A DNA stretch of 64,000 bases from Sphagnum magellanicum (Eukaryota; Streptophyta; Sphagnopsida; Sphagnales; Sphagnaceae): the NCBI GenBank assembly GCA_021904315.1, contig CM038921.1, positions 12,864,146-12,928,145 on the forward strand. Direction: 5' to 3'. The notes beneath the pieces were generated by a model, which ran no database searches, was not told the DNA's origin, and saw nothing but the letters and a program-made list of their open reading frames with translations. Shown piece by piece: positions 10,797-57,764 of the stretch (positions are counted from its first letter, which is position 1; each line of letters starts with the position of its first letter). A program made the translations under genes and the position numbers.

Positions 10797-11661
10797 CATT
10801 TTTGTTCAAAATCGATAGAATTTTTTAACTGGTTCGCTTCAACTTTCAAGCTGTCAAAATGAAAATCTCAAAATCTTATATATTAATTCACTACATCCCT
10901 GACAGAGCTCGGGTTTCAGGCCGACTGGGCCCGGCGCTAATCGGAGGGCGGAATGTCCTGTTCCCAGTCTGTGGGCAAAGCTATTGGAGGAAATTAGGTT
11001 ACGACATTCTAGCGCAGAACGGAGACCCGGGATAGCCGACGTCAAGAACGGGGTGCCGGGCCGGGTCCGGTTCGGACTGTGTGTGACGGAGCTCGGCAAC
11101 TTTTGCTCCAGAGAGCACCCACTGAGGGAAGTTATCAGCAGTCACTTTTCGGAAAAGTTTTTGGTATGGTCGTTGCTGATTTTGGGTACTGTAGCTGTGC
11201 AAGATTACAGAACGTCTCTCGTGGTAATAATAGCACCGTGGGTTTTTTTTTTTGCGAATTGTTTTTGTTTTTTGCCAAAATGGCCATCATCTGTAGGAAG
11301 ATGTGGAAAAAGTGGGCAATTATCTTAAGGAAGATTTAGCCAAACCTGGCTTCAAATCCAAACATGAAAGCACAAAGCGTTGGGGGCGGCTGGAGTGGCG
11401 TAGCCACGGGTTACCCACTAGTTATTAATTATTCTCACAAACATGTGTGAAGGCGGCCAAGCTACAGTACATAGTTTCTAGGGTATGAATAAAGTCTTCT
11501 TCACGTGCAGTACAGGGAGTGGGTGTAGAGGGCAGGCAATGTATAATGAACATGCTAGGTATTCATTTTTCTGCTAGGGAACTTGCTGAGAGAATGGGGG
11601 TTATCTGAACGGAATCAAGACAGGTCATGACGTTGTGTTATTGTCGATTGGGTCATAAATA
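10797..11661 (+). repeat. direct repeat, right copy, interrupted
   Basis: The flanking parts 10797-10888 and 11423-11661 align to the left copy at 10156-10480 with moderate divergence. The join of the two parts corresponds to the continuous sequence near 10235-10250 in the left copy. The repeat ends about 345 bases before the LysM kinase open frame and so may contribute to its promoter. Confidence 0.7.
10889..11422. mobile_element. 534-bp GC-rich insertion with 8-bp target duplication
   Basis: Comparison with the empty left copy defines an insertion bounded by TATTAATT at 10881-10888 and 11423-11430. Its first 200 or so bases are strongly GC- and CpG-rich (words such as GGCCCGGCGC, GGGCCGGGTCCGG), unlike all surrounding DNA. 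The 3' part contains a T10-12 run and a GGCTTCAAATCC segment that resembles a pol III B box only loosely. The ends share little terminal inversion, just ACTA-like words. An 8-bp target duplication suits a hAT-type non-autonomous element, but the type is not proven. The overlapping ORFs on both strands have no recognisable product. Confidence 0.55.
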
Positions 11662-11997
11662 AGGAAGCAGGTGCTGCAGTTGGGAGTTGGGAAGTTCAGG
11701 TTGATATGTGACAAAATTGTTGGACTGAAAGTAGTTGGATCTTGCTTGAGGTGAAGAAAGAACATAGTGGTCTCATGGAAGTAGTATTTGGAAAACCATG
11801 TCGAAAGATAGGTCGGTAGTTGGGTGTGGTGAGATTGTTGCAACAGCAAGCTGAAATGGTTCAAAAAATTTGTACATGAGGGTGGAGATTTTCTCAGAAG
11901 CAAAGTTGTTGCAGGTCGTGGGTTGAGAAGGAGTCTGAGAAGGAGTCTGAATGGGTATGTTTTTCTTTGTCAGCTTCAGCAGTGTCATGGGACATAG

Positions 11998-13857
11998 GTC
12001 TCGCTTTTGTTTTTGTTGTTGCTTTTAATGTTGCATGGATCTAACGCCCAACAAGCCTACAACAATGTCAATGGCTACACTTGTGCGGCAGCAGAATCCA
12101 AGGGTTGCACTTCCTATACTTTGTACAGAACGCAGAGCAGCAAAGAAGACCTTACAACTGTGAGCACACTCTTCAACACACCTGCAAGCATAATCGCAGA
12201 GATTAGTTGCTTGAACCTCACCACCAGTTCTTTGCCTGTTGGGACGCCTCTTTACATTCCTCTTGCTTGCAATTGTGTGCAAAATAGCTACCAAGGAAAT
12301 GTGAGTAGAACCTATCAAGCAATTGTCTCTAGGCAACTATCTAGGCAACTAGTCAGTGACAATACATTCTTCCTACTTGCAAATAATACGTATGAGGGTT
12401 TGACCACTTATCGAGCCATAGAAGCTGCAAATCCCACTTTAGTGCCTACTGATCTCCAGATTGGTACCCAGGTTACTATTCCATTGCGGTGCGCATGCCC
12501 TTCAGCCACACAAAATGGAACCAAAATTCTCCTTTCTTTTGTTCTTTTCCCAAATGAGAATTTCAGCATTGTGAGTTCGTATTTTAATGTCTCTCACACA
12601 GATTTAGGAACAGCAAATGAAATTACTGTTAGCACCCCCCTAGAACCTTTTACCACATTGCTTATTCCTCTTGTCAATCTCCCTCCAACTTCAATCAAAT
12701 TTATTTCCCGAAATCCCCCCAGCATATCTTTTCCTTCAAGTAAGCTGAAAAAGAGAAGACTTGTTCTACCAGTATTGATTTCTATTTTTCTTGTTAGTGT
12801 AGGATCATCCCTTGGGGTTCTTTTCTTTAAGAAGAAACTTTGGAGACAACTTCACTTGGTAGATGTTTCAAGGAATATAGCTCAGTATAATTTCAATGAT
12901 CTTGAAGGTTTATCGAAGGGGCCTCACAAGTTTAGTTACAAGGAACTCAAAATTGCAACCAATAGCTTCAATCCACAACATTTGCTTGGGCATGGAGGGT
13001 TTGGAAGTGTATATAAAGGCACATTACGTGATACATGTGTTATGATTGCAGTGAAGAAAATTGATCAGAATTCCAAACAAGGAGGACGTGAATTCTTTGC
13101 TGAAGTTTCCATAATTAGTCGCATCAAACATCGAAACTTGGTGCAACTACAAGGATGGTGTTGTGAACGAGGTCAACTCATGATTGTTTATGATTACATG
13201 CCCAACAAAAGCCTTGACAAGATCTTGTTTCATGACCATGAAGGTAAGATAATAAATTTCACTTGGGATTTTTGCAACAATGTTTTGATTGGAGTGGCAT
13301 CTGCGCTTGTTTACCTTCATGAAGAGTGGGAACAATGTGTGGTTCACCGAGATGTCAAACCTAGCAATGTGATGCTTGACCAAGATTTCAACCCACGCTT
13401 GGGTGATTTTGGCCTTGCTAGACTCATAACACCAACTAAGAATGCACAAACCACGATGTTAGCAGGAACAATTGGTTACATGGCACCAGAGCTTGCCACC
13501 ACTTGTAAGGCCACAACAAATAGTGATGTTTTTAGTTATGGGATTTTGGCATTAGAAGTTGTATCTGGGCGACGTTTCTTTGACACAAAGGTTCCTGAAG
13601 AAGAAATGATCCTCCTAGATTGGGTATGGAAGTGTTATGAAAATGAAGAACTCCTTAAGGTTGTGGATGCCAAACTTATGGTTAACATTCAAGAGGAAGG
13701 AAGCATAAGGATGGCCTTACTCCTTGGTCTTCTATGCACACATCCAGATCCAAATGCAAGACCAACAATGGGGTATGTTCGTCAAGTGTTGGTAGGCAAT
13801 GCTAATCTTCCTACACTTCCCCTCCACAAACCTGTTATTTCATATTCTTCAAAATGA
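11998..13857 (+). CDS. LysM receptor-like kinase with lectin-RLK-type kinase domain
   Basis: A membrane receptor kinase, probably sensing chitin-like or other N-acetylglucosamine glycans. Numbering is from the TTG at 12007 (616 residues). Residues 1-15 are a hydrophobic leucine run resembling a signal peptide ending near SNA/QQ. Residues 20-225 are a LysM-type ectodomain with paired-cysteine spacers CNC (88-90) and CAC (162-164) and about six N-glycosylation sequons. A basic KKRR stop-transfer and a membrane segment lie at about 250-274. The kinase domain is at about 310-595: GHGGFG loop 328-333, Lys350, Glu366, HRD 447-449, DFG 467-469, APE 493-495. All catalytic residues are present, so an active RD kinase is predicted. 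Segments such as YLHEEWEQCVVHRDVKPSN and GTIGYMAPEL are typical of L-type lectin receptor kinases rather than LYK/NFR5 kinases. The reading frame has no intron. An in-frame stop at 11995-11997 precedes the leucine run and the first in-frame ATG is 12028, so the true start is uncertain: an upstream exon joined at the AG of 11996-11997, a non-ATG start, or a shortened protein. Confidence 0.88.
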   Translation, partial: VSLLFLLLLLMLHGSNAQQAYNNVNGYTCAAAESKGCTSYTLYRTQSSKEDLTTVSTLFNTPASIIAEISCLNLTTSSLPVGTPLYIPLACNCVQNSYQGNVSRTYQAIVSRQLSRQLVSDNTFFLLANNTYEGLTTYRAIEAANPTLVPTDLQIGTQVTIPLRCACPSATQNGTKILLSFVLFPNENFSIVSSYFNVSHTDLGTANEITVSTPLEPFTTLLIPLVNLPPTSIKFISRNPPSISFPSSKLKKRRLVLPVLISIFLVSVGSSLGVLFFKKKLWRQLHLVDVSRNIAQYNFNDLEGLSKGPHKFSYKELKIATNSFNPQHLLGHGGFGSVYKGTLRDTCVMIAVKKIDQNSKQGGREFFAEVSIISRIKHRNLVQLQGWCCERGQLMIVYDYMPNKSLDKILFHDHEGKIINFTWDFCNNVLIGVASALVYLHEEWEQCVVHRDVKPSNVMLDQDFNPRLGDFGLARLITPTKNAQTTMLAGTIGYMAPELATTCKATTNSDVFSYGILALEVVSGRRFFDTKVPEEEMILLDWVWKCYENEELLKVVDAKLMVNIQEEGSIRMALLLGLLCTHPDPNARPTMGYVRQVLVGNANLPTLPLHKPVISYSSK

Positions 13858-13907
13858 ACGTGACTATGTTTCCTGATTTGATCAATAGCTTGCAACAAGA
13901 AGGTTCC

Positions 13908-13913
13908 AATAAA
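13908..13913 (+). terminator. AATAAA polyadenylation signal candidate
   Basis: The hexamer AATAAA lies about 50 bases past the stop codon of the LysM kinase gene and is the nearest good match. Plant signals are loose, so this is only a candidate. Confidence 0.35.
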
Positions 13914-15900
13914 TCGTTTGAACTGAATGAATTCTAGAATTAGGAAATGTTCCCATAGTTGATCTCATAACTTAGTTATAAGTTCATTGACATGATTTAT
14001 TTGTAATTATAACATGGTAACTTTGGTTGAATACCAACATAAAACTAGCTTGCAAATTGTTATTCCTTTTAATATGTGGTGTGACAATATCCAAATTTTT
14101 AATTGTTATGAAATTGGTTTATGTATCGGCATGCCCTTTTCACTTATTTGTATTCATTTTGTGCTCATAAATGGTTTATTGATAAAAGGATTGTTTATTG
14201 TTGTTATAAAATTTATGTCATTGGATATCCAAACAACATTTGCAAAAAATCATACGGCTACTTACATTTAATATATATGTTGATAAAAATTACAATATTG
14301 GATTGGTTTGTTTAAAATTGTACAGATTTGTCATAAAAACATCAGTCATATATGGCATCTCTTCATAATTTTTAACAATTGTCTTTATCACATAGCCTAG
14401 CATATTATTTTTCTATTAACTTGTGTTAATTTGCATCTAATGTGAAAAAGGATATTTGAAAGCTTGCTTAGGAAGATTATAAAAACCTTTCTTCCCTTCT
14501 TGTATTTCTCTTTTGTCAAGTTATAATTGATTTTATAATTTGATCTAGTTTATGTTGAAAACTCATGGAAGTTTGTTATAATATTTTATGATTAATCAAA
14601 TCATGATAAATTTCATTCAAGATAATTTGCATATTTTGGGAAGGAATTTGATTTTATTTGATGAAAGATAATAAACATGTGGTTGAAAGAATAATTTTGT
14701 TCAAGATCCTAAACATTTCAAGTTTGTTTGAGTTTGAACCTTTGATGTGTGTTTTCATTTTTAAAGGTTTTTGTTGTCTTGAAAGCTTGTGAGAATTTGA
14801 ACCCCAAACATGGCTTTGAACCAAGCTGAGAAAAGTCATTAAAGTCTAGGTCCTAGAAATAAAAACTAGGAAAGAAATTTGGTCAGTGGTGCATGGGAGA
14901 ATGTTGAATCATAATCATTTGTTGTTGGAATCTATTAATTTGCCTTGTAGAATTTGACCAGCCATGTTATCAAAGCAATAAAATTGGTCATCATAAAGCT
15001 TATAGTGTGGTTTGTTGCTTGTGTATCACCATCAATTTGACTGGAGGAATGACTACATTAACTTTTTGAATTCTACCACTCCTTGTATTGGACTACTTGC
15101 CCAATGCAACTTCACACCTCCAAAGATCTATTACATTTGTATGCACAACCAAGAATAAAACAACATGATAGTGAGGTGAATTTTTGTTGTGAAAAACACA
15201 TTGGAAGCACCTTTAAAATGTGAAGCTTCAATCGAAATAATTAAATAAGATATTTATGTTATGGAAATCTTTTGCAATCTCCATTATTATAACAGCCTAC
15301 TACCATTGCAAATTCATGTGCTACCATTGCCAAGGCTAATTAAAATGTTTATCTCTTTTTTGGTCGAAGTTCATTTGGATTACTTCAAAAAGGGAACCTC
15401 GGATCTGTTTTTACAATAGTGATCAAAAGTTATAAAGCAAAGGATCTCCATTGTAATGTTCAAAGTGTGAGTATGGAGGTGTTGTTTTTTGCCATCACAT
15501 AAGCCAAATTATTCACGATAGAATTTCACACTTGCTTGTTTTTGTTATTTTTGGACTTGTTGGAAGTGTTTTTCAACCATTGATGTAGATTTTTTCTAAA
15601 TGGGTCTAATTACATGGGCTTGCACAATGCACATTTGAAACACTTCGATATTACATTATTTAATTCCAACATATTCACATCTTTCATGTAATTTCATCCA
15701 TAGCCTTTCTTGCATATGTGAATTCAATTATGTACAACCATCAAGCCATACACACACACATAAAATAATCCATTGGGTATGGGGTGAACGTTAAATCCAT
15801 TAATCCATGTTACTTTAGAAATGTTTAATAGTAATGGTTAAATCTAAATGAAGAACATTCTTGCAAAACCTTGGTCCTTGACCTATCAAAGAATAAAACA
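13914..15900. other. AT-rich intergenic DNA, nothing recognised
   Basis: Two short overlapping frames at 14014-14315 are the only open stretches near the receptor gene and look like AT-rich 3' flank. There is no motif, structural RNA or transposon end that I can support. Confidence 0.5.
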
Positions 15901-30162: not shown

Positions 30163-32644
30163 CTAGAAAAAATAATCTCCTACATCTGCTAGGCCATCTC
30201 CAGCACAGAGTGGTCGGAAGTCGAGGACTTGACTGCTTGGCATCAACCCAAAACCAAATCTGCCACTTGCGTATTGCCAAACCCGGGCCTCATTATCATG
30301 CCTTCCAGGTCCTCCCTGCATAAAATTATTCAGCCTGCAATAATCTAAATTGAGGGTTGCCCGAAGCATCCCCACCACCTCTTCATCAATGTAATCCTGG
30401 GAACCACAATTCAAACACCTGCACTCGATGCCATGTCCACAAGTTGGGCGGTTATGGAACCGGCACTCATAATTCTGCTGCTCTATTTCTGGTAGAGGAG
30501 CTGGGATCATGCAAGAATCTTTTGCAGTCCAGTAAACAGAGCCAGTGCCCATTGTTGCACCAGGAGGGTTGTTGCCCATTTTTCGGCAGATAACCCCACC
30601 TTGATCATCATAGGAGAGCATTACAATGTCCAAACCAGTTGTTCCACTAACAGCCTGTACCCAGAATGTGATCATCATATTCATGTCACGTAAACAGATG
30701 GACTCTTTACAAATTCAGTACTTCAACAGATGACTCTTTCAAGCGGCTAACATCCTTTCAGCTAAACTCTAAAGAGAATCCATTTTTTGTTGGTGTTTTT
30801 TACTTTCGGTACAAAATTTTCAATCAAAATCCTGAAATTGTACCTTCCAAAGGCCTTGGAGAGGACGTGCTGCAGTTGGACAGCAGTGCACAATTTTGAC
30901 AAAGTGCTCAGGCTCACATCGGTGCCTGCCTTGACTGAAAGCACGATCTCGTTCCCGGCGCTGTTGCTTCCGAGCAGCACGGTCACCCCCTGGGCTTGTA
31001 ACTTTCCTTGCCAAAAACTGGTACATTTCATATGGGAAGCTTCCTGGTGGACTCAATCCTGCATCAGAGCTTCCAGAGCTTGCCTCTGAGTTCACTCCTG
31101 GGCTCCCTCCACCTGTGTGGCCAAAGAAGTTCACCAAATTCTCACTGGAACCAAATGAAGCAACAGCTGCTGCCTCCACCAAGGACTTCTTCTTACCCAT
31201 GAATGGATACTGTGTCTGCTGAAGTTGTTCCACCACAATGTGATGACTACCTACAAAATGCATGTCAACTACAACTACGCCTGCGGGCAGCTCTTGCTCC
31301 AAATTCAAGTCTGGTCCCAGCATCTCAAATGGGTTTTTCATCCCTGCCACAATCATAAGCAGGTTTCCCCAGTCAATGAGGTGCAAAAGATGCACCCTGG
31401 CAAAGCAGAAGAGTGGTTTCTTCTTCCTCCTCTTTTGTTTTGAGTTTGTAAATCATTGTCAATGAGGTACAACAGATAGCACTCCAGTGAAGCACAAGAG
31501 TGCTTTCTTCTTCTTTTGTTTGAGTTTGCAGATCATTTGCAGCCTTTGTTGTCAATGAGGTGCAAAAGATATAGCACCCCCAGTGAAGTTGCAGATGAGT
31601 TTGTGAATCTTCATTTACTTCCGTTCAATGCTGCTTTTGCTGTTCAACAATTCAACAAATGTTTCAAGAACCATGGTGCAGCTGTTCTGCATGAAAGGAG
31701 AAAGCTATCAAGAAGGTGAATCGGTTTGTTCATCATCCACATTTTCTTAGCACCAAAAAAATGATTCCACAACTTGCACCCATTCTCTTTTGAGTGTTAG
31801 GTTCAGGGTGCTACAGATCATTAGGGTTTCAACGGTTTCTGAAGGGGGATCGATGCACACACCTGCTGAGAAACCCAGATTGCCAGGGATTTGCAAGGGT
31901 CTGGAGCTTGGTTGGCTTTCTGAAGCTTTTAGGGTTGTTTTCCCATTCACTGGATGCACAAAATGTGCAGAGTCGAGATGCATGAGGCAAACAGGGTTGC
32001 CATCTCTGGACAACCCAATCCACACAAAAGGAAGTTTGCACACCTTGAAAGTGCCTGGAGTTGCAGGCAGGACTCGGAAACCTGTGATGTTGTGTGGGCC
32101 CCAATCGAAGACGACGAGGTTTCCATGGCCTCCGTTCTCCACCCCTCTCCAAAACCCCACCAGGTTCTCGAACCGCGTCAGAAATGTATGCAGGAACTTG
32201 AACGGCACGCTGCCGTTTGTCACCCAGCTCCACACCTGAGTACTGCTCCCCCATCGCCGCTCACACATTGGCAACCAGACCTGATTTCCCGGATCCCAAG
32301 ATTTATCAGATCACAGATCACCAAAAAAAAAAACCCTACAAAAAAAGAGAAGAAAAAGAGAAAAAAAACTTAGGCCTTACTTTGTGATCATCCCGGCAAA
32401 GCTCGCGGAGGCGGTGACTGACACAAGAACAAGTGGAAATCTGTGCGGGAGAAAGAAAAGACAGGATGTGAGATAGGGCATCATCACCCAAGTCGTACAA
32501 GCTCCTCCATTGGTCGCTGTTCTCGCCATCTACTACCTCCTCCCCTTGTTGTTGTTGGTGTTGTTGTTGTTGTTCTTGGATTCCTTTCTCGCGGATTCTC
32601 AGCCCAGTAAAGCTTCTCTCCTCTCCCCACTGCTCACCACCCAT
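30163..32644 (-). CDS. F-box protein like Arabidopsis At3g12350 (557 aa, 4 exons)
   Basis: Predicted SCF ubiquitin-ligase substrate adaptor; the substrate is unknown. My exon model (minus) is 32644-32381, 32280-31863, 31343-30844 and 30654-30163. All junctions are GT-AG, phases are 0, 1, 0, and 1674 coding bases end in a TAG. Residues 22-34 are Gln-rich. The F-box lies at about 48-100 (LGDDALSHILSFLSPAQIS, then VWLPMCERRWG after intron 1). After it come GFWRGVE, VVFDWGPHNITGFRVL, VDMHFVGSHHIVVE, SFPYEMYQFLARKVTSPGG, EPEHFVKI, LQGLWK and RVWQYASGRFGFG, the ordered landmarks I recall from At3g12350-type proteins. A Cys-rich patch (CGHGIECRCLNCGS) lies in the last exon. An earlier in-frame ATG at 32680 would add 12 residues. 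Intron 2 has a good CAG/GTGTGT donor that leaves an unused open tail down to about 31747, which could be a retained-intron form. Confidence 0.85.
31372..31600. repeat. about 90-bp tandem repeat inside F-box intron 2
   Basis: Three units begin GTCAATGAGGT at 31372, 31458 and 31551 (spacings 86 and 93). Each continues with a GCACCC/GCACTCCAGTGAAG-like segment and a CTTCTTCTTCC-TTTTG tract. The array lies next to the 3' splice site of the intron, whose exon starts at 31343. Confidence 0.65.
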
Positions 32645-33437
32645 CTGAAAAGAAAACGAGCAACAAAATCCAAAAACCAAAAGAATTACATAGGTATATC
32701 TTCAAAGCACACAAAAGCCGACAGCAAAGTCCGAGAGGAGGAGCTGCTGCTGCTACTGCCGCTACTTTCAAGGATGATCCACTCACAGGAAGGACTTGTC
32801 ACTTACTTGAACTCAGCAATCGATTCTCGCTTAGGTATTATTATTATTGTCTGCACCAACCAACCAGGCTTCAATCCCAACACAAAAAAAAGCTTGCAGA
32901 CTACGGCAAGCAGCAAAACCCTGGACATGTACAGCACGAAATCCTGCTGCTGCTGCTGCTGCTGCTGCAACGAAGAAATCGCGAGCAAGGAAAGGCAATT
33001 GCGGAGGAGGAGCATGCATGGGCATGCATCGCCACTCCTCCTGCGACCCAGCAACAACAACGTCGCCACTGTTCTGGGAACGTCATCGAGAGCCCATATC
33101 GAACGTAATCAACAGCGAGCAAGCGAATGGTCGAGATCCTTGTTAGCCGGGTCCGGGTTTTTGGGCCGGTTCTGGGTTCGGATCTAAAGAGCCATCTCCA
33201 AAGTATGATGCCATGTTCCATCTCCGAGAAAATGCAAGAGAAAAATAAAATCAAAATTCCGTTACTGGAAAACCCAACTAAATCAAACTACTCATATGGC
33301 TACCAAATGCCCACTACCGTCCAATCAACAATTTCCGTAGAGGATTCTAGCATCCAAAGAAGCCCCAATCATCTCCAGGAACCAAAGGGAAAGGAAAAAA
33401 CTACCAGCAAAAAGAGGGAGAGAACTGAATCCAGGCA
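32645..33437. other. region upstream of the F-box gene with CTG and TTA runs
   Basis: This is the 5' flank of the minus-strand F-box gene. It holds a (CTG)8 run at 32944-32968, (TTA)n near 32837-32849 and a GC-richer block up to about 33185 (GTCCGGGTTTTTGGGCCGG). The 225-codon plus-strand frame at 32510-33187 overlaps F-box exon 1, is full of simple-repeat products (Leu, Cys runs) and is judged non-coding. Confidence 0.45.
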
Positions 33438-37376: not shown

Positions 37377-38159
37377 TAATGGGACATTTCTTGGGGCTTG
37401 TAACCAATTGGGGGGGGTATAATCAAAGATGATTCTACTGACTTCCCACATAGAAAGTTGCCTTAATTAAGCCCTTGCTTATGCTTTGGCTCAAAGTACA
37501 CCATATGAAGAAGAATACATGTCTTGCATATGTCTTTCAAACATTGTTTTTTGGTAAGTTGTCTTTTTAGATGTAATTTAAATTAAATTAAATTTGATTT
37601 GAATTTTTGCTAAACAATTTGGTTAATTTTATTTTTTTACATCATTGGTGGAAATATTTTTTTAATTTTGGATTTATGCTTGTTCAACAACTTTGGATTT
37701 TGGTTGCTTTTGGCACATTGGTTAAAACTCAAAACCTTGAAAGGTTGAATCTTGTGTTGTTTATTATACATAGTTAGGCCAATGGCCAAAGCTCATCATG
37801 GCCAAGGCGAATTGACCCCCCCACATTGGGATCATTCATGGTAAAAAATCTCAAAACCCATTAAATTGCTTATAAATATTCTAGCATGTTTAACTATAGA
37901 CTCCCAAAAAAAATAATTTTTAATTCCAAAAAATCCATTTCAACAAACAAAATATTCCCAAATATATTTCAAAAGATGCTTCATTTTTTGCTCACAATTT
38001 TTATTTTTTTCTTTGAGAAAAAAACATTTTTTTGAAAATATAATTTTTTCCAAACCTACTATGGAGTTTGAAGCCCTTCTTTTTTTGCTTTTCAGGAATT
38101 TGCAGTTTGTTTCGCACGCAGAAGCCAAGCGAGCGGAGCTTCCTCCCATCGATCCAGCG

Positions 38160-41100
38160 ATGGAAGGCGTGACCTATTTCAGCGGTTTTCCTGTTGCGCA
38201 TTCTGGTGCAATCAAGCCATCTCTGTGTTCTCGTCGATACCAAAGCCTTGGTGCCGCAAAGCGGAGTAAGGATTTGGATTTTTTGCTTCTTGTTTGTTCG
38301 TCTTCGTCTTCTCCTTCTTCTTCTTCTTCTTCTTCTTCTTCTTTTTCCGACGCAAATCACAGGGATGATGAAGCTTTCTTTTTTGATGATGTGAGGCGGA
38401 AGCAGCAAGATTCGGCGATTTTTTCTTCACTGGCGTTGTCGTATAACCAGAGTTTTCTTCGCAGCAGCAACAGCAGTAAAAAAAGATTTTGTAAAACTCA
38501 GCTTTGTGTTTTTCGTAGTTCTAGAACCGATGGAAACGAGTCATCTAGGGGACGATTTCTTGTTCGGGGTGGTTCTCTTGGTGGCGGCGGCGGCCAAGGG
38601 AGCGAGCTTGACGAAGCAACAGCATCCACATCTTCGGTTTCTGAGCTGATAACCCCGGAGCAAGGCCTGCGGCAAACGGAGTGGCGAGAATTTGTTGAGG
38701 AAGATTGGAAGCAACGAGAGTTGGAAGATTTTGGAGATTCTGCATTAGCACTAAAGAGCAATCCACAAGAAGAGGAGGATCTGAATCAAAGGAAGTGGCA
38801 AGAATTTGAGGATGCTGTTGAAAGACAGGATCTGGGAAGGGCACTCAGAGCTTTAGAAGTGCTGAATAGATTCGAATCTGACACTGCTGAAAGCTCAACA
38901 ACTTTTGTGCAACAAAATGGCACAATTGATGTTCTTGGAAAAAAAGACATAATAGGAGAGCCTTTCTTCTTGCAACAGGTTTTGCAAGAGGAGGAAAAAA
39001 AACCTTCTCCTCAATTCAGGTCTGTCATCATTCCACAAAGAGAGTGTTTGAAGATGCTGGACACATGCCAGAGTGCTTTGGATCTCCAGTTGGTGGGGCA
39101 GGCTTACAATTGGCTTAAGCTCAGAGGATTGCTACCAAGTTTTGGCAAATTTAGAGCACAGGGTAAGCTCTTTCACAAAAACCCTATTATTGGTGTCTTT
39201 GAACCTTTGAAGGGTTTAGGGTTTAGGGTTCCTGTCCTCTTTGTAATTGGCCAATATGTTGATGGCTTGAGCTCCTTCAATCTGAACTGCATGGATCCAA
39301 AGTTTACACAATCACTTTTCAGGGTAATGTAGAAGAAGAAGCCTCTGTCCCACCAAATTCAAGGTCAATGAAGATTTTCAGGTTTTTGCCCACTTGCCTC
39401 CACCCTCAGTCACATGGCATATAGCATACACGATCAGCAGATCTGAAACATGTTGAGAAATTGAAATAGTCAAACCCTTGGGCATCATGGTTGCCAGAAG
39501 TTTGTTTCTCTCATTCCTACAGAAGCCTGAGGCAGGTGGAATATGCACAGTACACAGCATTCTGTTGTTGATTAACATTAGGAAAAGTTGCTTTTGCAGT
39601 GTTTGAAACTTCAGAAGGGGGGAGGGTTGTCACAGCAGCAGATATGCTGGCATCAGCTGGCCTAACAGGTGAATTTTTCTTGGCCATTACTTACCATTCT
39701 TTCAGCAAGTATCCTTCACTCATTTCATGACTTCTTCAACAATCCTTGGTTTTGGTGTTGTGGATGTTCTTCACAGAGTTGGGATTACTTCAGGCTATGC
39801 ATCTCATTTGCGTGGGACTGATACAAACTCATTTGGTTGGGGATAAATGTGTTGGAGGACAAGTGCAGACAAGAATCTTTCACCAAAGAAATGGGGTCTC
39901 TCTGGCAACTCTGCCATCCAGCTAGTGGCAGGAATTGCAGTTTTCTCTTTCTTGGTGAACAACAGCATTGATATAAGGCCATTCACATTTTTAATAGTAG
40001 CACTGGGGCTACTGGATGCAACCTATTTGGGAGGGACCGGACAAGCACAGTTGTTTAGCCTCTGGCCTCCATACAAGCGCCGTGTCCTTGTCCATGAAGC
40101 AGGCCATGTTCTTGTTGGTAGACCTGCTCTCCAAGCTGTATGTATATGTGATTTCAGTTTTTAGTAGAGCCTAGTTTCAGAAGACTTGCCTCAGATTGTA
40201 GGAGTGCTATGCCAGGCGTTAATGTCTCATTCTCTTGGTGTAAGCAGTTGGACTCTGTTCAGAACTTTGCAAACACATAGATGCACAACTAACACACTGG
40301 GGATGGTGGGCTATGTGTACAGCATATTTGTTGGGGTGCCCTGTGAGAAGTGTTGTGTTGGATGCCATGCAGGCCCTCAAATCCGGTATTCAGGGTCAGG
40401 TCTGATCCCCCTAGTTCTTCACCTTCTTAGCCCTTCTCTTTTGAAGAGCAGATAGGCTTTCTTAGCAAACAGACAACTATAGAAAACCACCAAAACTGTC
40501 TGGGATAACTACACATGCCTCTGAGTACCCAATTGTAATATGCAGATAGTAGTACAGGAGATTGTGATGGTTATGTTTCCAGTGTTATCTGCCTAGTGTT
40601 TCCAGTGTTTGAGAATCTGGATCTTATCTTCTCCAACTGCAGCACTAAAGCTCATGAACCTTAAGGCTAAGAAGAGCAATTTTACTTTAGTCTCAGAACC
40701 TCTCACATCTAGTGCACCAAAATTTAACCACAGAAATCAACCCACATAGTAATGTTTGTACACAGCTGCACCAGCAATACTTTGTGACTTGTATCTTCAA
40801 AGATGCTTTTACATGGAAGTGTTTCTGATGGAATCTTCTGTTGGTTTATGGGATTTGGTCAGGCTGGGACCCAGTTTTGGGATGAGAGCTTGGACCGGGA
40901 GCTGCGTCAAGACCGATTAACCGGGGCCACTCTTGACATGTCATTTTCTCTTGAACTTGACAATTTCTGGTCCAGAGCTCTTTGATGCATGCATTGCAGG
41001 CCCAACCTACTTGTTTGTGGACATGTTGAACAGTCCAATTCAGATCATACACTTTCAAGTTGGTACTATACATAAACAAATCTGATTTCAGGCTGTCTCA

Positions 41101-56473: not shown

Positions 56474-57764
56474 ATGGAGCTGAGTCCTTTTGTTCATCAT
56501 CATCATCATCATGGCAAGAAGGGAAGAGGAGGAGGAGGAGGAGGAGGAGGAGGAGGAGTCGCCGACTTGTGGGATGTGATCGATCCTTTGGAAATTGCAC
56601 TCACGGTCCTGGAGGAGGACGCTCCCCGTCGTGCGCGGGCTCGTGATAGGCGCGCCATAGCCAATACTAATGTGGACTGGGTGGAAACTCCGGAAGCACA
56701 CATTTTCAAGGTCGATCTGCCAGGTATCTCATTATCATCAGTGCCGATGTTCTGGTTCAGATTTATTGGCGACGTTGCTGCAGTTCGTCGAGCTTTTCGT
56801 GCATGTCGGTGTCCGCGATGAGTCCAAATGGTTGCAGATTAGAGATCTATACTGTACACTGCGACCTGCTTGCCTGTTCTTCTACTGCAGAAAGCTGTCT
56901 TGCCTTTAGGAGATTACAAGGTTCACAATTGCATGAAGATACCAGACTCGCTTAATCTTCTTACATTCTGCATGCCGCCGTAGTACGAGTCACGACGGCT
57001 TTGGCAATATGTGCACACTTTCTTCAAGGCTTTTCGAGACTCTTGTTTAACTAATTTGATAAGCGTCACGTGTTGTATATGAATTTTATGGCAGCTTGAA
57101 CCACAGTACTTTGTTGAAGAAGAAAAAGATGAAGATGAAGATCTCAGAACATGTCTGTTTCATGTGCAAACTCTGGGTGTGCCGAAGCATGCCAGTTTCT
57201 TGCAGCTCTCTATGTGCCAAAGCATGTCTGTTTCAAGCTCTTTTGCACCTGTTTCGTCTCGTTCAATCATTCTTGAGTAGGACTAGTATACGGATCCTCT
57301 GCTTGATCCATTCGTAAAATCCTGCCAAATCCGTTTCTGTCTATCTCAGCATGTCGCGGAACTGCATGCGTCGAGATTGTCTCATGAAAATGTTGCAGTG
57401 TTTTTGCGAGCGTGCATGCCAACGATTTGCTAATGGTACTAACGAACTCTGGGTTCGTGTGGACTGCTTGGCACTTTGGAACTCAGGAGTAGGAAGTAGC
57501 GAGATTGAAGTGACAGTTGAAGACCGAACGCTCAAAATCAGTGGCAATCGCGTCAAAGACGTGGTGAACGAAGGCGATACTTGGCACCTTGCGGAACGCC
57601 CGCGCGGACACTTCGTGCGGCGATTCAAGCTTCCAAAGAATGCGGACGTGGACAGGATCGCAGCAGTGGTTACCGACGGTGTGCTAACAGTCATAGTGCC
57701 GAAAATCGAGCCACGGAGAAGGCAAGAACGTCGACATATTGAGGTTAGAGAGCACGGGGACTAA
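56474..57764 (+). CDS. small heat-shock protein (HSP20/alpha-crystallin), 175 aa, 2 exons
   Basis: An ATP-independent chaperone that binds unfolding proteins; probably cytosolic or nuclear since no organelle signal is seen. Exons 56474-56723 and 57487-57764 (CCAG/GTATCT donor, CTCAG acceptor) join in phase to give DLPGVGSSEIEVTVEDRTLK across the junction. Residues 8-13 are six His and 19-28 ten Gly, encoded by (CAT)n and (GGA)n runs. An N-terminal arm (LWDVIDPLEIAL) follows. The alpha-crystallin domain starts near 65 (VDWVETPEAHIFKVDLPG) and contains RPRGHFVRRFKLP and the consensus GVLTVIVPK. The tail ends with an I-E-V triplet, a plausible I/V-x-I/V oligomer anchor, like class I proteins. 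The intron inside the alpha-crystallin domain is notable because many plant cytosolic class I genes are intronless. Length is normal for the family. Confidence 0.9.
56509..56560 (+). repeat. (CAT)n and (GGA)n coding microsatellites
   Basis: Adjacent trinucleotide runs in exon 1 of the small heat-shock gene encode the His (CAT from about 56495) and Gly (GGA from about 56527) tracts. Confidence 0.8.

Follow-up and report, generated by a model that had tools for sequence, protein, structure and literature searches.

A probably young family of chimeric genes joining an LYR-type LysM ectodomain to an L-LecRK-type kinase in the moss Sphagnum magellanicum

In the genome of Sphagnum magellanicum one open frame carries LysM domains together with a kinase resembling that of the lectin receptors, which raises the question whether two receptor families were joined here into one gene and whether such a gene still works. 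The frame (11998..13857, + strand; 619 codons and a stop, with no usable start codon) lies in the window, the whole stretch of 64,000 nt that was analysed (C15:12864146-12928145).

Domain architecture and descent of the two halves

The frame begins with a signal-peptide-like hydrophobic stretch (11998..12048, +), read from the sequence as VSLLFLLLLLMLHGSNA and having no in-frame ATG upstream. Then follow LysM1 (12106..12276, +; Pfam LysM1_NFP_LYK, 53.9 bits, residues 37-93) with a CNC pair at its end (12268-12276), LysM2 (12346..12486, +; LysM2_NFP, 53.5 bits, residues 117-163), after which comes a CAC pair (12490-12498), and a LysM3-like domain (12529..12672, +; LysM3_LYK4_5, 27.5 bits, residues 178-225), the first two scoring above the Pfam cut-offs and the third slightly below its cut-off of 29.3. 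A membrane segment of 23 residues (12760..12828, +), read by eye and flanked by KKRR and KKK, leads to the kinase (12931..13854, +; Pkinase 165.4 bits, residues 327-592), in which the P-loop GHGGFGSV (12988-13011), AVKK (within 13045-13059), HRDVKPSN (13345-13368), DFGLA (13405-13419) and APEL (13483-13494) are found by motif reading. The frame is unbroken from LysM1 to the end of the kinase. Thus Pfam and motif reading agree with the first-pass annotation, which had described LysM, two CxC pairs, a membrane segment and a kinase in one open frame, and the domain search that it proposed found LysM and Pkinase in the window protein and no Lectin_legB at E up to 10.

This set of domains corresponds to none of the three neighbouring receptor types as a whole. 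The ectodomain has the three extracellular LysM with CxC pairs of the LYR/NFP type (LysM3 being slightly sub-cut-off), while the degenerate LysM-family kinase of the LYRs, which is without glycine loop and DFG, is absent, the corresponding motifs of the chimera being intact. The chimera is also not of the LYK type, defined by an active kinase of the LYK/CERK1 clade and a gene of ten or more exons. Of the L-LecRK features the kinase of that clade is present in the window copy and likewise in the open copy of the family, L029, while the Lectin_legB ectodomain is missing from the window protein and was not found in L029 at E up to 0.001.

Comparison with solved structures placed the ectodomain closest to NFP (7au7, 89.6 bits), which together with the LysM1 and LysM2 scores bears out the earlier reading of the 5' part as LysM. 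For the window kinase BAK1 (216.7 bits), LYK3 (143.2 bits), CERK1 (134.5 bits) and the LysM receptor kinase 8ps7 (104.8 bits) were matched and none of them ranks first; the open copy kinase has the same pattern, with the L-LecRK kinase 6cth at 321.9 bits followed by BAK1 at 224.7 bits. The second kinase exon of the moss LYR L013, used as control, gave the opposite order (8ps7, 222.4 bits; CERK1, 158.3 bits; 6cth, 86.2 bits).

Separate trees, as the first-pass annotation had advised, were built for the two halves, with LYR and LYK labels assigned to the rows in this analysis from sequence and structure matches. The kinase tree included 19 rows (3 chimeras, 9 L-LecRKs, 5 LysM kinases, and 2 others), where the LysM kinases were represented by three partial segments and two exon joins made by eye. 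Support of 100/99 unites the three chimera rows with five of the L-LecRKs, among which they nest, and the five LysM kinases make up a clade of their own at 100/100, so that the kinase stands inside the L-LecRKs and outside the LysM kinases, as its motifs had first suggested; the exact sister of the chimeras among the LecRKs is placed at 83/71 only. The ectodomain tree included 14 rows (five chimeras, seven LYR-type sequences, and two short LYKs of the same genome). Here the five chimeras come together at 99/99 with the LYR-type rows, and the LYR-type side is split from the two LYK rows at 100/100, while the branching order among the LYRs is weak and the program warned of long branches meeting. 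Because the ectodomain and the kinase are placed in different families, the gene arose by domain shuffling, and its anatomy and descent are established by these data.

Lectin_legB was present in all eight fetched close lectin-kinase relatives of the same genome, a subset of the matches listed, whereas the ninth fetched kinase, L039 (36% identity), has a SPARK domain in place of it and stands outside the chimera/L-LecRK group in the tree. At the DNA level positions 117-992 of L029 align with the LYR gene L031 and positions 1039-2194 with the lectin kinase L037. The seam therefore falls within some 47 bases of the linker that precedes the membrane segment, and this segment comes along with the lectin-kinase part; transferred by hand to the window, the seam lies approximately at 12695..12742 (+). 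The kinase of the LYR genes L009 and L013 is divided between two open frames, and at the site of this split the L031 and L032 frames end as well. We read this break as an intron, which the chimera would not have at that position. Among these sequences, the LYR gene at L009:3499-5364 has LysM3 separated from the membrane segment by a long stalk of proline-rich repeats, and a long open frame at L025:5180-6982, judged by eye, resembles a reverse transcriptase.

Family members and the state of their reading frames

The genome searched with the window protein comprises 438,994,042 bases in 31 contigs, 20 of them large (C1-C20, from 36.3 Mb down to 4.72 Mb for C20; C21 has 0.23 Mb). The search gave 73 rows, and 71 of 1505 candidates were scored, hence the locus count is a lower bound. 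At least five loci (9 of the 73 rows) carry both halves: on C15 the window copy (11998..13857, +) and a tandem copy outside the window (C15:12855043-12856856), and on C6 the open copy L029 (C6:20179701-20181548) with two more (C6:20197321-20199166 and C6:20145598-20147440). The other four are 83-94% identical to the window protein, save one fragment of 67%. The stretch 11424..14349 (+) belongs to a duplicated segment that the window has in common with the tandem copy, with 93.5% DNA identity over 2934 aligned bases. Two 12-base tandem duplications in the window copy are absent from that tandem copy: the first (11924-11950) precedes the frame, and the second, at about 12328-12351, gives extra residues between LysM1 and LysM2.

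Both parental gene types have relatives in the same genome. Among the matches listed, LYR genes at C15:12207132 (66%) and C10:8709590 (64%) come nearest for LysM, and for the kinase this place is taken by lectin kinases from C17, C15, and C4, mostly at 64-66%; over the membrane segment and kinase together, the intronless lectin kinases have about 65% identity. One further kinase match (63%; G000:C5:3469774-3470508) has one internal TGA and is reported inside an open frame of 3880 residues.

A functional receptor has a start codon and a signal peptide in the same frame as the rest of the protein. In the window copy an in-frame TAG (11995..11997, +) stands immediately 5' of the signal-peptide codons, where the other four copies have Q, the closest ATG on the 5' side (11987) is in another frame, and the first in-frame ATG (12028) comes only after the signal peptide's hydrophobic core; the frame is thus that of a start-less receptor. 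Compared with L029 it lacks two bases at codon 16, is interrupted by a stop at codon 56 and carries two extra bases at codon 672, besides in-frame indels. These lesions mark it as a probable pseudogene or truncated gene whose start region was lost, and owing to the broken start region it likely has no secreted product, barring an unseen upstream start exon.

Among the five chimera loci found L029 alone is open throughout (699 codons from stop to stop). It has the same domains as the window copy and an in-frame Met about 44 residues upstream of the hydrophobic stretch, with a comparable extension in the LYR L031. More generally the 5' ends of L029, L031, L027, and L009 have in frame about 40-60 residues upstream of the signal peptide, a feature common to LYRs and chimeras, whose translation is hypothetical. 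The remaining three copies are broken, as is the window copy (four of five in all). The copy at C6:20197321 differs from L029 by a 2-base deletion at codon 298, close to the seam, and those at C15:12855043 and C6:20145598 have three stops and a 4-base deletion in common besides one private 1-base deletion apiece. Judged from these common lesions, the duplication between C6 and C15 seems to have involved a copy that was already dead. The kinase motifs are kept in the window copy, L029, and L033.

Selection and competing explanations

The dN/dS of chimera kinases against LecRKs was 0.215-0.261, compared with 0.167-0.267 between LecRKs, and this low ratio may predate the fusion. For the chimera ectodomains it was 0.41-0.49 against L031 and about 0.25 against L032, with 0.175 for L031 versus L032. 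Among the young copies pairwise values were 0.60-1.82 on few changes, including 1.40 between the two C15 copies, which is hard to interpret as one of them is dead, and the pooled kinase changes of the young copies gave no departure from neutral that would indicate purifying selection (24 of 34 nonsynonymous, one-sided p = 0.18). In the ectodomain of L029 20 of 21 lineage-specific changes were nonsynonymous (p = 0.024 without correction, among several tests). L029 and L033 differ there at 24 residues, all of them located in positions 1-154 of a stretch of 211, the LysM3 part being identical. This pattern could be due to diversification, gene conversion or chance, and it carries no weight in the argument.

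These data are quite probably best explained by a small and young chimeric receptor family of the moss, in which an LYR 5' half joined to the membrane segment and kinase of a LecRK was copied and one open copy is left. A serious rival, held at somewhat below even probability, is that the whole family is decaying, i.e., that an accidental fusion was copied with its segment, never had a function or soon lost it, and that the open copy is merely unhit so far. The broken state of four copies, the neutral pattern among the young ones and the apparent duplication of a dead copy alongside the live one are all consistent with it; against it stand the 699 open codons of L029 and the kinase motifs retained in three sequences. 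The synonymous distance from the chimera ectodomain to the nearest LYR (0.48-0.50, versus 0.015-0.058 for the copies compared among themselves) also argues against decay, since the frame would have stayed open for long if the fusion was early. A working receptor from the open C6 gene has, on balance, roughly even chances.

For the window copy itself a function could be rescued if its start were taken from a spliced upstream exon before the signal peptide. The AG of the TAG at 11995-11997, just before the frame, is a possible splice acceptor, and the 619 codons are still open; the frames of L031, L032, and L029, however, continue open through the start region, the 2-base deletion and the stop are absent from the open copy, a 2-base insertion lies near the 3' end, and introns are described as almost absent from the LysM part of such genes (PMC6207691). 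Such an exon is accordingly judged improbable, and a working window copy is given an equally small chance. The fused frame might also be an assembly join of two neighbouring genes, or simply two genes in tandem, and the first-pass annotation had named two separate transcripts as the outcome that would overturn its reading. The two halves lie side by side with the same architecture at five loci on two contigs, and the other four resemble the window protein closely apart from the one fragment, so that tandem genes are very unlikely and an assembly join is hardly credible. The proposal of a separate receptor class made by shuffling holds in one of its parts: the two trees back the shuffling, while the window copy, with its broken start region, is probably not a working member.

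Proposed mechanism and relation to known receptors

In the preferred reading of a young chimeric family, recombination would have put the 5' half of an LYR gene, which encodes the signal peptide and the LysM triplet, in front of the part of an intronless L-LecRK that encodes its membrane segment and kinase; further copies would then have arisen by tandem duplication and by duplication between the contigs C6 and C15. The ligand, location, kinase activity, and pathway of the chimera can be proposed from homology. MpaLYR, the single LYR of Marchantia, binds CO and LCO, and the early response of this plant requires both LYR and LYKa (PMC12184373). By analogy the LYR-type head of the open copy may bind chito-oligosaccharides and may relay the signal to its own lectin-type kinase, independently of a LYK partner kinase, by which a chitin-type input would be wired to an L-LecRK output. 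Alternatively, an LYR head on an active lectin-receptor kinase would add a lectin-kinase output to the chitin response. The fullest version, where the C6 gene is a working one-piece chitin-type receptor of the L-LecRK pathway with a diversifying LysM1-LysM2 region and a fixed LysM3, is tentative and its probability is below even.

Foreign kinases behind LysM heads are known, contrary to the initial statement, which gave known plant LysM receptors either LYK-type or NFR5-type kinases. The LysM-III or LYRIV receptors (MtLYR5, MtLYR6, LjLYS20) have a foreign kinase (PMC6625017, PMC6207691), described as close to the WAK subfamily (PMC6207691), and LysM-III is reported only from rosids (PMC6625017). 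The moss chimera likewise joins a group II (LYR) LysM triplet to the kinase of another RLK family; their kinase is WAK-like, whereas that of the chimera is nested in the L-LecRKs, in a tree containing no WAK or LYRIV sequences, and on this evidence common descent with LYRIV was judged unlikely. Because LysM-III is reported only from rosids and the host of the chimera is a moss, an independent fusion is likely. In grasses a group of CRKs had its kinase exchanged for one of the concanavalin-A-lectin type by chimeric gene formation, with one or two exons (PMC6368629); there too an ectodomain family acquired an L-LecRK-type kinase, but the head is DUF26 and the hosts are grasses, in contrast to the LysM head and the moss host of the chimera.

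Both parental types remain recognizable. With the LYRs (NFP/NFR5, MpaLYR, L031 and L032) the chimera shares three LysM and the CxC pairs, with 64-66% ectodomain identity to L031 and L032; LYR kinases are described as degenerate and of the LysM family (PMC6039847), whereas that of the chimera has glycine loop, HRD, and DFG, and comes from another family. With the L-LecRKs (L030, L037; 6cth) it shares the part from the membrane segment through the kinase, which is about 65% identical to L030 and L037, but the LysM triplet takes the position of the legume-lectin domain. A survey of 350 genomes derives LysM-RLKs from two independent events and describes domain swaps in other families, and the pair of LysM and L-LecRK is unnamed in its available text (PMC10834447), as it is in that of a lectin-domain survey including Sphagnum fallax (PMC6362431). 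Among the matches listed from the open-access literature, seen as titles and beginnings of abstracts, no report of a LysM ectodomain on an L-LecRK kinase was found. Thus the joining of LysM heads to foreign kinases is already known, and the pairing of LYR and L-LecRK in a moss looks new.

Besides the rosid LysM-III and the grass CRKs, this would be a further plant case of kinase swap behind a carbohydrate-sensing head. LYR heads normally pair with LYK, and a natural LYR-LecRK fusion asks if the partner can be bypassed; it also raises the question of which signals the lectin receptor kinases of a bryophyte transmit. Since a single genome contains relatives of either parent along with an open copy and several broken ones, the fusion can be studied directly.

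In the rest of the window no link to the receptor was seen among the neighbouring frames (20 of 85 listed frames scanned with Pfam), and Rfam gave no match in the 64 kb. The second-longest listed open frame (37917-39329, +; 471 codons) has no Pfam match at E up to 0.01. An F-box open frame (32339-32701, -; 35.6 bits) lies in a stretch of raised GC with many overlapping frames, and another open frame (57318-57761, +) encodes an HSP20/alpha-crystallin domain (Pfam, 77.3 bits).
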